Part shown: one piece after another, positions 17,663 through 63,191 of the stretch
How positions within the stretch are numbered: the stretch's first letter is position 1
How the letters are laid out: each line of letters starts with the position of its first letter
From: a virus
Virus record (IMG/VR): IMGVR_UViG_3300037141_000279
Span: 1 to 64,000 of that record
Strand: one strand, 5' to 3'
DNA: 64,000 nucleotides
Made by a program: the position numbers and the translations under genes
Notes under the pieces: generated by a model
Databases searched by the model: none
The model's input: the letters and a program-made list of their open reading frames with translations, nothing else
Told to the model about the DNA's origin: nothing

Positions 17663-18220
17663 ATGAACTACTTACCCGAATCCGACCTAGCAAAAGTCTT
17701 CCGCTCCGCGTACGAAGCTGAGACCGAGAAGAGCCACCTACATCACATGGCAATGCTGGTGATGTACTTCACGGGAACGCGCGTGTCACAGATGCTGAAC
17801 CTGAAGGGCGAAGATATTTTCCAGCGTGATGGTAAGTGGGTTGTTCGGGTCGGCGCGGCGAAACGCGGAAAAGTCGTCGTGCGCAACCTGCATATCTCTG
17901 ATGACCCGACCGTCGACATGACCCCGATGATCGCGCTCGCGGCCACCAAAGGATTGTCAAAACTCTTCGGCGGACTCAGCCGTCAATACTACAACGACGT
18001 TTTGGAAAAGTACTTCGTGGCGGCAGGCATCCACAGCAGCTATGCTCACTCACATGTGTTTCGGCACAGCGCCGCGATGACCATCTACAAAGCAACACAA
18101 CGAATCGGAGCAGTCAGCGAATTTTTGGGACACAAATCGCCGTCTTCGGCTTTCGTCTACTTGCAAGAAAATGACGGCATGTTCGCCCAGGACGCCATGG
18201 ACAATCTGGTGCTGGCGTGA
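17663..18220 (+). CDS. minimal tyrosine recombinase
   Basis: 185 residues, only the catalytic domain of the lambda-integrase/XerC family; the arm-binding and core-binding N-terminal domains are absent. Catalytic residues are readable: Arg40 (GTRVSQML), Lys67/70 (AAKRGK), His131 and Arg134 (HVFRHSAAM), His157 (LGHKS) and Tyr166 (VYLQ). It could integrate the phage, resolve dimers or invert DNA. No att-like duplication was found nearby. The start follows GGAGG. Confidence 0.85.
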   Translation: MNYLPESDLAKVFRSAYEAETEKSHLHHMAMLVMYFTGTRVSQMLNLKGEDIFQRDGKWVVRVGAAKRGKVVVRNLHISDDPTVDMTPMIALAATKGLSKLFGGLSRQYYNDVLEKYFVAAGIHSSYAHSHVFRHSAAMTIYKATQRIGAVSEFLGHKSPSSAFVYLQENDGMFAQDAMDNLVLA

Positions 18221-19108: not shown

Positions 19109-19323
19109 TGAGCGAACCTATCACACAAGCAGAAGTGGATGAAATCTCTGCGTATTGCGAGACGCACCCAAATTGCCGCGTTCAAATGCATGAAGATGGC
19201 TCGTGGTGTATCGCCCTCTCGTGGAGTCAGAAGTACCGAGGATGGATGCACCCGCGCAGTTTCTTAGACTTGATTCGCGAAGAGGAATCAACCGCGCCCG
19301 TCGACATTCTCAAGTCTACTTAA
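19102..19323 (+). CDS. small protein, unknown
   Basis: 73 residues; the start may be the ATG at 19102 or the third codon (19108), which overlaps the previous gene's end. Acidic helix EVDEISAYCE, then CIALSWSQKYRGWMHPR. It ends 8 nt inside the convergent KTSC gene. Confidence 0.5.
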   Translation: MLMSEPITQAEVDEISAYCETHPNCRVQMHEDGSWCIALSWSQKYRGWMHPRSFLDLIREEESTAPVDILKST

Positions 19324-19546
19324 CCCGCTCAATGTGGAAATTGTCCTTGAGGAATTTGTGGTAGTGCTCTCCCTGGCTGGGCGCTGCCATAAATTCCTGG
19401 TAGTGCTCGGGCGAAACTCCGTGAACCGCATACTGATACCCATTCTGATACCGCACGGTCATCTTCCGCTCGTGTGAATCGTACTTCGCTCCGTCAATGT
19501 GACCACTGCTGATCGGCGTGAATCCATCAAATCTGTGTGCTGACAT
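19316..19546 (-). CDS. KTSC-domain protein
   Basis: 76 residues with the KTSC pattern: S-S-x-I near the start (ISSGHIDGAKYD), MTVRYQNGYQYAVHGV and a terminal HYHKFLKDNFHIERV. KTSC domains occur alone or fused to phage tail or lysyl-tRNA synthetase-like proteins; their activity is unknown. It lies just beyond the terminator of the non-coding unit at 19.6-20.2 kb. Confidence 0.65.
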   Translation of the reverse strand: MSAHRFDGFTPISSGHIDGAKYDSHERKMTVRYQNGYQYAVHGVSPEHYQEFMAAPSQGEHYHKFLKDNFHIERVK

Positions 19547-19561
19547 AAATCCTCCAGAAAG

Positions 19562-19590
19562 TAAAAGAGGGGAGCCTTTTGGGCTCCCCT
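19562..19590 (-). terminator. rho-independent terminator of the tmRNA unit
   Basis: Perfect 8-bp stem ggggagcc/ggctcccc around a 5-nt loop, followed on the minus strand by TCTTTTAC. It begins about 10 nt after the stop codon of the tag frame, so it ends the non-coding transcript. Confidence 0.8.
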
Positions 19591-19600
19591 CCTCGGCTGT

Positions 19601-19773
19601 TTAGGCCGCCATCGCATACTGCCGTGCAGGAACCACGACAGCGCGCTTGGCGAACATCACAACCTGTGCGAGTTTGTTTTTCGCATTTATGGTTTGATCT
19701 AGTTTTACGTCGTTGTCAGGACGGCACGAGCCCTCGGCCACTTGTCTCAAAGAGCGAAACCCAGTTCAGGCCC
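19601..19773 (-). ncRNA. ssrA: circularly permuted tmRNA, coding piece
   Basis: The minus strand from 19773 reads GGGCCTG (5' acceptor strand), AACTG, GGTTTCGC (D-loop region), then the P2 strand CTTTGAGA, a pseudoknot-like GC-rich stretch and an open tag frame ending YAMAA-stop at 19601. GGGCCTG pairs over 7 bp (one G-U) with CAGGTCC of the acceptor piece, which lies upstream, and P2 pairs with TCTCAGAG there. The likely resume codon is GCG at 19684-19682, preceded by ATAAAT (U and A at -5/-4 as in SsrA), giving a 27-residue tag starting AKNK and ending PARQYAMAA. Final -AMAA resembles the ALAA/AVAA degron. Confidence 0.75.
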
Positions 19774-19842
19774 ACCGTACCGCACACTTGTTAGATTCCT
19801 CAGACCTTTGGTCAGAGAAAACATCTTTGATGTGCGGCAGGG

Positions 19843-19890
19843 TGGACCTGGGCAGATTCGAACTGCCGTATCTCTGAGAAGCCACCGATT
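19843..19890 (-). ncRNA. ssrA: circularly permuted tmRNA, acceptor piece
   Basis: Minus strand, 5' to 3': P2 strand TCTCAGAG (19879-19872), T-stem GGCAG, T-loop TTCGAAT, T-stem CTGCC, then CAGGTCC and discriminator A. CC follows but no encoded CCA. No 5' partner for CAGGTCC exists upstream; the partner GGGCCTG starts 70 nt downstream, the order of permuted two-piece tmRNA genes in alphaproteobacteria and cyanobacteria. The segment between (19774-19842) would be excised. The 5' end of this piece is not fixed and may extend into the structured leader. Confidence 0.75.
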
Positions 19891-20201
19891 ATTGACGTGC
19901 GTAATTTAAGGTCGCCGTCCTATTCGCGTGTGACGCAGACATGTGTCCACAGTTATTGACGCGTGTTAACTGCACGACCAGCTTTCGGGGCGAAACGGCC
20001 CCAAGAAGGTTCCCGTTTGTCAAGTTATTACCCAACGTGCGGGGATGCTTGACGAGGTGACGGGACCCTTCTTGGAACCATTTCGACCTCCACCATTGAT
20101 TCATCAGTCTTAAACCTGATGTTAGAGGGTCGCTGAAGCCCGAAGTATATGGACAGAGAATGCGCGCTTATCTGTTTGCAACTTCGGGCTTAGTCGAACC
20201 C
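19891..20201 (-). ncRNA. highly structured RNA leader of the tmRNA unit
   Basis: No gene, but strong nested helices on the minus strand: an 11-bp perfect helix (20181-20191 with 20136-20146), a 15-bp helix with one mismatch (20061-20075 with 20001-20015), an inner 6-bp helix (20048-20053 with 20019-20024), and a GGGGC/GCCCC hairpin next to it. These could be the pseudoknot domain of the acceptor piece or a separate RNA made from the same promoter. Near its 5' end is GGGTTCGAC, as in tmRNA D-regions. Confidence 0.55.
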
Positions 20202-20207
20202 ACAGAC

Positions 20208-20236
20208 AGTCTAACAGCGAGTACTATTCTTGTCAA
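20208..20236 (-). promoter_or_regulatory. promoter of the tmRNA unit
   Basis: Minus strand TTGACA (20236-20231), 17-bp spacer with one AGTACT half-site, TAGACT (20213-20208). Predicted start near 20201. Near-consensus, as for stable RNA genes. Confidence 0.75.
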
Positions 20237-20415: not shown

Positions 20416-20925
20416 ATGAAGATGACACTCGCAGTAATCGTACTGGCTCTACTCTCGGCAGTTGGTGCTTCGGCTCATAAAGACAAACCTGTAACTCCTT
20501 GCACCGCATATTTCATGGTGGTTGAACAGGATGCCGCCACGGTCAATCTCGCCTTGACTGGACTTAATGGCCCTCAAGCAGATTGGTACAACAAACAGAA
20601 AAACATGAGTATCTGTTTTCTCAGCGCGGATGCATCAGGCAGGGGCAGGCGAGTGGTCGCCGACAAAGATGATTCGACCTTCAATTCGTATGTAGACTCG
20701 AAGGTTGGTTCCACACCCCTTTACATCATCGTTTGGGCAAATCAGCTTCTCTATAACCGTGCGGGGAACGCGTATTATGATGCCAGCGGGACCCTAAACC
20801 TTTGGGACACTAAGAAGCAAGATTTCGTTCCCGTTGGTCCAATCCACAACACAAATGCAACTATCTTTACTTCTTCGTCAGCATCTCTTCTTAAGGCAGG
20901 GATTGCAGAAATAGCACACCAGTAG
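20416..20925 (+). CDS. exported protein, unknown
   Basis: 169 residues from the ATG at 20416, preceded by GGATG; earlier ATGs fall in the promoter. Signal peptide 1-21 (MKMTLAVIVLALLSAVGASA). The mature part has single Cys residues near 30 and 67 that could pair, and SVFLSADASGRGRRV-type strands. No family recognised. It is the first gene of the operon carrying the receiver domain. Confidence 0.55.
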   Translation: MKMTLAVIVLALLSAVGASAHKDKPVTPCTAYFMVVEQDAATVNLALTGLNGPQADWYNKQKNMSICFLSADASGRGRRVVADKDDSTFNSYVDSKVGSTPLYIIVWANQLLYNRAGNAYYDASGTLNLWDTKKQDFVPVGPIHNTNATIFTSSSASLLKAGIAEIAHQ

Positions 20926-20975
20926 TGCTCCCGCCCTTGGCTCCGCTTAGGAGCCTGGGTCGAGGTGCATTAAAA

Positions 20976-21323
20976 ATGAAAATCCTAGTCGTAGACGATA
21001 ACGTCGACATGGCAGAAGCCCTCGCCATGAATCTGGAGTACGCAGGACACACCGTCATCACCGCCCACGACGGCGCGGAGGGTCTCTTCAAATTTCGGGA
21101 GTCCCAATTCTCTAACACTCCGTTTGACGCCGTCGTATCCGATTGGCAGATGCCGAAGATGGACGGTATCGAGATGATTCAACAGATACGCAGAATGGCT
21201 CCACTCGTCAAAGTGGTGCTCGTGAGTGGAGGCGGTCCGCACGTCCCCGAAAGCATCCCGTTTCTCGCCAAGCCGTTCGGACGAGCGGAGTTGCTGGCTG
21301 CCTTGGGGGTTGAATCCAAATGA
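20976..21323 (+). CDS. stand-alone response-regulator receiver domain
   Basis: 115 residues, a complete CheY-like receiver and nothing else. Acidic pocket Asp7-Asp8 (ILVVDDN), phosphoacceptor Asp56 (VVSDWQMPKMDG), Ser84 (VLVSGGG) and Lys99 (LAKPFG) are all present, so it should be phosphorylatable. No kinase is encoded in the window, so it would tap a host histidine kinase, either as a decoy sink or to signal to a partner. Confidence 0.85.
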   Translation: MKILVVDDNVDMAEALAMNLEYAGHTVITAHDGAEGLFKFRESQFSNTPFDAVVSDWQMPKMDGIEMIQQIRRMAPLVKVVLVSGGGPHVPESIPFLAKPFGRAELLAALGVESK

Positions 21324-61736: not shown

Positions 61737-62290
61737 TTTACCCCTCGCTGAACCAAAGAATCAATGCCTCGTTGAATGAATGTGGAAAAGTCACACAATG
61801 CTTGATAGTATACCATCAAAACCTGCTGTATTTCATTTTGGTCCCAGGTAGGGTCCTCTTTTGCCGCCAACAGTAACTCCATCTTCCCTTGCACAAATTT
61901 GAGCCTCTCTTTCGCCATGCTCAAGCATCGGGTGTCGCCCACATTCAGCGGGGTCAGGGAGATTTCCAAAGATGGAGCTTCGGTATTTTCATACCCCTCT
62001 GGGTTGAACGGGGTGTCTGGATTGTCGGAACTTGATGGAGTTGGGGTGATAATCCCTACCGACTCTTTGTATCTATCTATCCAGTAATAAGCGGTTTTGG
62101 GAGGAATCCCCACTTTATGCCACATTGCATAAAGTCCAGGCTCTCCTCGACGGTTCCCTTGTTTCTTCAATGTTTGCTGCCAATCAAAATTCACGCGGCC
62201 AAAAGCCAGCCCATGTTTGTCCGTGGATTGATATGCCAGCCATGCCGCTTGGATTTGCTGTTCGGCGAGAGTTTGGTCAGTATCCTGCAT
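61733..62290 (-). CDS. HTH-containing protein, unknown
   Basis: 185 residues from the ATG at 62290 (an ATG at 62317 overlaps the Mom-like gene further). LYAMWHKVGIPPKTAYYWIDRYK looks like a helix-turn-helix. Acidic, Ser/Thr/Pro-rich linker follows, then a helical C-terminus. Likely DNA-binding, in the replication-recombination cluster. Confidence 0.55.
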   Translation of the reverse strand: MQDTDQTLAEQQIQAAWLAYQSTDKHGLAFGRVNFDWQQTLKKQGNRRGEPGLYAMWHKVGIPPKTAYYWIDRYKESVGIITPTPSSSDNPDTPFNPEGYENTEAPSLEISLTPLNVGDTRCLSMAKERLKFVQGKMELLLAAKEDPTWDQNEIQQVLMVYYQALCDFSTFIQRGIDSLVQRGVK

Positions 62291-63191
62291 GTTTGGAATT
62301 TCGGCAAGGTGTGTCAAAGTAAGGTAGCCCCCTCTCTAAGTCTTTCACGTAGGCGATCTTGCCTGATTCCTTTTTCATGACGGCAGACCCATCTGCCAAG
62401 GCAGCGTGAAGTTTTTGAGCGATACCGATTCGCTCCGTAGGGATTTTCGGCACCCAAACCCATCGGGTTCCGTGGCGGTGTTTCTCTTCCCGAAGGATTT
62501 TTTTGTCTTCGGGGACCTGATTCCAAAAATCAGGCTCGGAATGGTAGTTGTTGTATTGGTCTAAATTGCGAATGGGATACCGCCGCCCGTTCCACCAAAT
62601 CGCTTTTGTTTTCAGAACCTCTTTGACTTTATGAAACCCAGTGGCTCGATATATCAAACCTGTGTGTTTTCCGTCAGGATGGTCGGCACGTACTTCGTTC
62701 GGGTCGGCGTAGCTGAGGACCCGCTGGATTCCCTCTTGTCGGAGAAGTCGAAACATCACACTAAGCACTCGACTCTCGCTGTTTTTAGGGGCGGCGTCAA
62801 GAAGCACTAATCTCCGCAATTCAACAAGGCGCAGATTCCCATTACCGTTGTATTTACGTAGAGTTTGAGTCTGACCTGGAATTCCAAAAATCGCCGCCCC
62901 AAGCATTCGACCTGTCTGTTTATTAACCACCCGATAAGTATGCGTCGGAGTCATACCTTTGGCTGAGTGAGTGTAATGGTGCGCCACAACAAAAGCCGCA
63001 GCTTCTCGGGCAGAGCACGGCTCGACACAGAATTCTGGAAGTTTTTGTTGACTACCTCCGCTATGGTGTTTGTGAAAATGTTTTTTCCGTTGGTTGTTGG
63101 ACGGAAACACAAGACTGCAAACCTCACAAATATGGAGCGGAGGAGGCGGAATCGAACCGCCGTCCACGATAGGACTCGTGTGCTCTGCCAT
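62277..63191 (-). CDS. Mom-like DNA-modification protein with C2H2 finger
   Basis: 304 residues from the ATG at 63191. The body (~75-220) matches the Mom/GNAT-like adenine-modification family: HHYTHSAKGM, RMLGAAIFGIPG, LVELRRLVLLDAAPKNSESR, VLSYADPNEV, IYRATGFHKV. In front is a C2H2 zinc finger (CEVCSLVFP...HFHKH), unusual for Mom. The first ~20 residues (MAEHTSPIVDGGSIPPPP) are encoded by the tRNA-like sequence, and its GGAGGT serves as an ideal ribosome site for this ATG. A later start is possible only at non-ATG codons. Confidence 0.6.
   Translation of the reverse strand: MAEHTSPIVDGGSIPPPPLHICEVCSLVFPSNNQRKKHFHKHHSGGSQQKLPEFCVEPCSAREAAAFVVAHHYTHSAKGMTPTHTYRVVNKQTGRMLGAAIFGIPGQTQTLRKYNGNGNLRLVELRRLVLLDAAPKNSESRVLSVMFRLLRQEGIQRVLSYADPNEVRADHPDGKHTGLIYRATGFHKVKEVLKTKAIWWNGRRYPIRNLDQYNNYHSEPDFWNQVPEDKKILREEKHRHGTRWVWVPKIPTERIGIAQKLHAALADGSAVMKKESGKIAYVKDLERGLPYFDTPCRNSKHAGY

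Follow-up and report, generated by a model that had tools for sequence, protein, structure and literature searches.

A circularly permuted tmRNA gene in tailed phages related to the Acidobacteriota phage Tunturi_3

A minus-strand locus in a 64,000-nucleotide stretch of viral DNA (the whole of which is hereafter called the window) raises the question of whether a tRNA-like T-arm and 3' acceptor strand, placed ahead of a matching 5' acceptor strand and an open frame, constitute a genuine two-piece tmRNA (ssrA) gene and, if so, what such a gene might do for a phage. The window takes in the first 64 kb of a viral contig of 96 kb, which carries phage genes for a terminase, a portal, a major head protein, a DNA polymerase, RecA and ribonucleotide reductase. 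The proposal of a phage-encoded, circularly permuted tmRNA had been made in an earlier note from the letters of the sequence, and is borne out by two independent detectors in conjunction with covariation and synteny. When the whole window was searched against all of Rfam, the tmRNA_permuted model (RF04321, cut-off 47) aligned end to end with minus-strand positions 19900-19601 at 63.4 bits (E=6.7e-10), and ARAGORN independently called a permuted tmRNA with a 27-residue tag, AKNKLAQVVMFAKRAVVVPARQYAMAA. The segment 19905-19562 has a folding z-score of -9.0, and its minimum-energy structure displays both acceptor strands, the T-arm and P2. The locus shares with the permuted Rfam families (RF04321, the alpha-type RF01849, the beta-type RF01850 and the cyanobacterial RF01851) a gene order in which the T-arm and 3' acceptor come first, as well as the two acceptor strands, P2, PK1, the resume context and a tag. 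The closest of the older subtypes is beta_tmRNA; however, the RF01850 scores of 37.1 bits for the window and at most 70.7 for its relatives (a range of 37-71) all lie below the cut-off of 84, and hence it is not a typical beta-type member. It further differs from these families in that the phage tags are 24-37 residues long as opposed to about 10, and in that PK2 is absent from the clade of the window.

A permuted gene can be mimicked by a chance tRNA T-arm lying upstream of the 5' half of a standard tmRNA, and this artefact does occur: of 396 Acidobacteriota genomes, 13 gave RF04321 scores over the cut-off, and 12 of these matches overlap a standard tmRNA, mostly with a tRNA-Asp just upstream, while the thirteenth adjoins the same tRNAs where a contig ends. 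The false positives L336-L341 and L363-L369 show this arrangement of a tRNA-Asp just upstream of a standard tmRNA. Because the matches overlap standard tmRNAs or stop at a contig end, we see no credible permuted ssrA among the 396 genomes of this phylum. The window locus, on the other hand, has neither an upstream tRNA nor a downstream standard 3' half, its terminator follows the tag, and the standard tmRNA model RF00023 reaches only 11.7 bits there, which is below cut-off. With acceptor strands that are complementary and covary across relatives, and with no downstream T-arm, this explanation is refuted for the window, and we regard it as having next to no chance of being correct.

Direct reading of the sequence confirmed the positions that had been assigned to the T-arm, both acceptor strands, a P2-type helix, a frame ending YAMAA-stop, a promoter and a terminator, all on the minus strand. 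The unit begins with a promoter-like TTGACA-N17-TAGACT (20208..20236; 10 of 12 consensus matches), and a TTGACA-N16..18-TAnnnT site occurs 119-367 nucleotides upstream of the T-arm in all seven members of the window clade. This is followed by a leader hairpin (approximately 19973..20092; fold z-score -4.95 for 20130-19930), a long stem containing GAAAUGGUUCCA...UGGGGCCGUUUC. The two segments GAAAUGGUUCCA and UGGGGCCGUUUC are conserved in G000, G020, G034 and, by eye, G003, while the sequence of the distal stem varies; the leaders of G020 and G034 form a similar long hairpin with a distal stem different from that of the window. The hairpin had no credible match in Rfam, and no second copy was found in the phage genomes. 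Next are the 5' strand of P2a, GCACG (19896..19900), which pairs with CGTGC (19728-19724), and the 5' strand of P2b, TCTCAGAG (19872..19879), which by sequence and minimum-energy fold forms an 8-bp helix, 19879-19872 with 19752-19745. The T-arm, GGCAG-TTCGAAT-CTGCC (19851..19867), was placed by the RF04321 alignment, and all five of its pairs covary. The 3' acceptor strand CAGGTCC (19850-19844) together with A73-C74-C75 occupies 19841..19850 and pairs over 7 bp with 19773-19767. A76 is not encoded in the window, where ACC is followed by C; the 3' end of the acceptor piece would be expected near 19841, after trimming and addition of A76.

The spacer between the acceptor strands (19774..19840) is predicted by the minimum-energy fold to form a hairpin continuing the acceptor helix. 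The expected start of the coding piece is the 5' acceptor strand GGGCCTG (19767..19773), as indicated by sequence, RF04321 and covariation, and is followed by a D-like segment, CTGGGTTTCGCTC, with the 3' strand of P2b (19745..19766), delineated by the RF04321 alignment and by comparison with relatives. Relative to the common form GGTTTCGAC, the D-like segment of the window has one extra G and an A to C change; in the D-loop, whose conserved form is GGUUUCGAC, the window has GGGUUUCGCUC and most relatives have GGUUUCGA. Next come the 3' strand of P2a, CGTGC (19724..19728), supported by covariation, and the PK1 region CGTCCTGACAACGACGT (19706..19723), which is near-invariant across most of the clade. 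One further match to CGTCCTGACAACGACGT, L053, was set aside as due to chance. The tag frame called by ARAGORN (19601..19684) consists of a GCG resume codon after CCATAAAT, 27 codons encoding the tag, and TAA. An intrinsic terminator with a 13-bp stem and a T run (19564..19594) begins about 6 nucleotides past the tag stop, leaving no PK2 between them. The genes of Tunturi_3-like phages (see below) retain a structured 3' part that is longer and includes a CCTNGCAACAGAA-type segment, and given that in the window clade the terminator lies almost directly after the tag, the downstream pseudoknot PK2 appears to have been lost in that clade.

Comparison of 12 distinct phage tmRNAs revealed that the P2a, T-arm and acceptor helices are paired in 199 of 204 cells, relative to a mean of 153 and a maximum of 167 when the letters of the 3' strands are redealt. 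As the helix segments were placed by hand, guided by RF04321 alignments, and the shuffle ignores relatedness, these numbers are indicative; the stronger point is that there are many different compensated pairs, with changes on both sides in 11 of the 17 helix pairs. All seven acceptor pairs form in the window and covary across the 12 sequences, whereas G1-C72, G2-C71 and G3.U70 are invariant in all 12. G3.U70 is the alanine identity element. The 7-bp acceptor pairing noticed earlier stands, though the identity pair lying within it had been overlooked.

Searches with exonuclease, capsid and terminase sequences recovered many relatives of this phage. The permuted tmRNA is present in seven related contigs of the approximately 97-kb type, namely the window, G001, G002, G003, G018, G020 and G034, of which G001, G002 and G003 are largely collinear genomes of 97-98 kb. 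That a lineage of related phages has the same gene indicates that it is a phage gene and not a stray host fragment. Its downstream neighbor, outside the RNA, encodes a 76-residue KTSC-domain protein (19316..19546, minus strand; PF13619, E=1.5e-13), and a similar KTSC-type gene starts after the terminator in G001, G003, G018 and G020, as it does in the window. Among searched records of at least 70 kb, six of seven in the window clade and eight of nine in the Tunturi_3-like group (the latter including near-duplicates) are positive for the tmRNA. The near-complete G035 has no permuted tmRNA detectable with RF04321 or a clade-specific model, from which it follows that the gene is common in the lineage and not essential. 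No DNA similarity to phage records was found at the locus or across 24 kb.

This distribution bears on the prospect that the gene is a decaying relic or a bacterial passenger that is nonfunctional in the window phage. The score of the window copy is among the lowest in its clade, and with its deviant D-loop, GGGTTTCGCTC, could be drifting; that loop and the absence of the gene from G035 both speak for decay. Nevertheless, the gene has been kept in phages with terminases about 22% identical to each other, its helices show compensatory changes, the tag frames are open with conserved C-termini, the tag core is under purifying selection, and promoter and terminator are conserved, all of which makes decay improbable. 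An origin as the remnant of an integrase attachment site also deserves consideration, as tmRNA genes are common integration sites and an ORF with a Phage_integrase domain (17663-18220; E=2.2e-15) lies 1.4 kb from the tmRNA. However, attachment fragments are short 3' pieces, whereas this tmRNA is whole, permuted, flanked by phage genes and similarly placed in other phages, and the sampled Acidobacteriota genomes offer no credible permuted ssrA with which to recombine; this origin is accordingly very improbable. The integrase-like ORF itself encodes a plus-strand, 185-residue tyrosine-recombinase-domain protein that is 87% identical in G003, and Tunturi_3 likewise has a gene annotated as an integrase. 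Also near the tmRNA is a stand-alone response-regulator receiver domain protein (20925-21323, plus strand), with no homolog in the relatives compared. Elsewhere in the window we observed, on the minus strand, a phage GroEL (858-2447; about 40% identical to other phage GroELs) near a GroES-like Cpn10 protein (385-666), a pair conserved in three full relatives, and a Mom-family DNA modification protein (62277-63191; PF25680, E=4.8e-22), which is absent from the four relatives compared.

The tag had previously been described as long and hydrophobic. It is indeed long, with 27 residues, but it is not set apart by hydrophobicity, for its GRAVY of 0.43 falls among the values of 0.37-0.85 for host tags, and those of phage tags in general are similar. 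The window tag is basic, with a charge of +5, as are most phage tags (+2 to +5), in contrast to the short host tags, which carry no net charge or are acidic. Readable phage tags have 24-37 residues; those of the window clade are AMPKKLAQVVMFAQRPAAFVPQALAA (G001), VKQTLAKVIEFVVPVRSRELAMAA (G002), VKPTKLAKVLMFARPAAFVPQALAA (G003), AKRKLAQVIAFPGVFAVASARPQALAA (G018), AKTKLAQVVMFASRTNVASARRLAMAA (G020) and AKTKMAKVLAFPAMRTVAPARQFALAA (G034), and our own reading of the frame gives VNKIDRSVVAVVPASRKVRVAQFATMLAA for Tunturi_3. ARAGORN tags for the G057 type (GKADEW...) and G523 (DEKYS...) were excluded, as they lie well past the coding region of the model. The window tag ends in AMAA-stop, and AA is found at the C-terminus of 11 of 12 tags. 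Over the eight-residue core KLAQVVMF of the window clade, pS is 0.735 and pN 0.182 (seven sequences, with synonymous sites near saturation), which indicates that the tag peptide, and not the RNA alone, is conserved. The tag-core motif was found in tmRNA frames and nowhere else in the phage proteomes. Within the Tunturi_3-like group, conservation of the core is much looser, and the endings of G063, G523, G529 and G531 differ. Two members of this group, G523 and G524 (L417, L418), have a 110-bit permuted tmRNA whose tag, by our reading, is about 35 residues long, acidic and devoid of a C-terminal AA. Mollicutes tmRNA tags are also long, similarly about 27 residues, and are degraded by Lon, but they are encoded by a standard one-piece gene and are unrelated in sequence. 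The retained peptide core suggests that the longer tag may have an added recognition function. A more specific conjecture, which we consider rather unlikely, is that the conserved basic core of the K[LM]A[KQ]V[VIL]xF type would be a distinct targeting signal and not a mere degron extension, sending rescued polypeptides to a fate chosen by the phage, such as another protease, an adaptor or sequestration. If true, the phage would reprogram trans-translation in a host whose own tmRNA gene differs in form and encodes a short tag that is neutral or acidic.

The probable host provides a contrast in gene form. The best matches among isolates are to the Tunturiibacter phage Tunturi_3 (28% identity for the major head protein and 24% for the portal), a podovirus with a genome of 97.6 kb that infects a member of the Acidobacteriota (PMC11924767). 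We found that Tunturi_3 has a permuted tmRNA too (L050, 39172-39396 on the minus strand of PP885686; RF04321, 63.3 bits), although no tmRNA is annotated in the record and this copy escapes ARAGORN; many Tunturi_3-like contigs also have one by RF04321. This distant kinship and, weakly, RecA suggest that the window phage infects Acidobacteriota: the three best RecA matches of 18 genomes are from this phylum (60-66%), with Verrucomicrobia and an Acidimicrobiia genome close at 63%. A capsid search of the 396 Acidobacteriota genomes, which lacked a positive control and is uninformative, returned no match. We speak of a soil origin on account of the kinship with Tunturi_3 and the report that related IMG/VR contigs come from soils and peat (PMC11924767). 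The host phylum of Tunturi_3 has one-piece tmRNA with tags of 8-10 residues; Tunturiibacter (Edaphobacter) lichenicola has a standard one-piece gene (165.6 bits) with the tag AEPQFALAA, and of the 61 genomes sampled from its class, 55 have a standard tmRNA scoring over cut-off.

Based on these observations we propose that a single transcript comprises promoter, leader hairpin, acceptor piece, spacer, coding piece and terminator, and that its fold would bring the acceptor strands together. RNase P and the 3' tRNA-processing enzymes would excise the spacer, the host CCA-adding enzyme would supply A76, and AlaRS would presumably charge the RNA through the observed G3.U70 pair. The two-piece RNA could then enter stalled ribosomes with EF-Tu and the SmpB of the host, which would be needed as no SmpB gene was found in 16 phage records. 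Translation would resume at GCG with addition of the 27-residue tag ending in AMAA, for which the frame and its conservation are observed and the activity is predicted. During infection the phage tmRNA might supplement or outcompete that of the host and keep ribosomes cycling, and truncated chains would go to host proteases such as ClpXP, in view of the LAA-like C-terminus, or Lon, a handling predicted only from that C-terminus. The most likely benefit would be sustained translation in infection, with stalled ribosomes cleared by a phage-controlled tmRNA; as we infer, the phage may thereby control ribosome rescue or mark proteins with its own degron. The cellular two-piece tmRNA of Caulobacter offers a functional precedent in that, as cited from Keiler 2000 in PMC3985003, one precursor yields two RNAs active in trans-translation. 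It shares the mechanistic model but differs in being a cellular gene with a short tag and a downstream pseudoknot.

A different role is that of a decoy or competitor RNA, which would bind host SmpB, AlaRS or EF-Tu and inhibit the host tmRNA with no tagging. This is a real alternative, for which phage DS6A supplies a precedent: according to PMC11915505, its tmRNA-like RNA, which has no CDS, inhibits the endogenous tmRNA on expression in E. coli. The phages here also have no SmpB of their own. Yet a pure decoy would have no need of a tag, and here conservation is seen at the resume codon, in the tag core, at the C-terminal AA and at the stop codon, making this role unlikely. We therefore favor, with considerable confidence, the reading that the locus is a genuine circularly permuted ssrA belonging to tailed phages of approximately 97 kb, relatives of Tunturi_3 that probably have Acidobacteriota as hosts, with processing and host SmpB-dependent tagging as proposed.

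The earlier note had also taken a permuted tmRNA in a phage to be new. This does not hold, as two-piece tmRNAs have already been reported from marine phages (PMC9004378): the authors counted 53 such structures in phage genomes with ARAGORN in 2022, 50 of them marine or aquatic, and placed these genes alongside alphaproteobacteria and further marine host lineages. Those phages (Melnitz, which has a glutamine riboswitch, Mosig and others) share with the window a phage-encoded permuted ssrA. The IMG/VR contigs that match a generic resume pattern, used as a contrast set only, are mostly permuted tmRNAs with short tags (ANDNFASEELRLAA). What seems new, among the papers and collections searched, is the Tunturi_3-related lineage with long basic tags whose core the window clade has kept, that clade's apparent loss of PK2, the mismatch with the gene form of the host, and an unannotated copy in the cultured isolate Tunturi_3. 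Beyond the marine examples, phage two-piece tmRNAs now include those of a widespread group; its cultured representative, the soil phage Tunturi_3, has a host from a phylum with one-piece tmRNA. As a phage tag can be told from a host tag by its length, charge and sequence, mass spectrometry of infected cells could assign tagged proteins to one or the other tmRNA, and the purpose of a phage tmRNA could thereby be tested directly with a phage and host that are both in culture.
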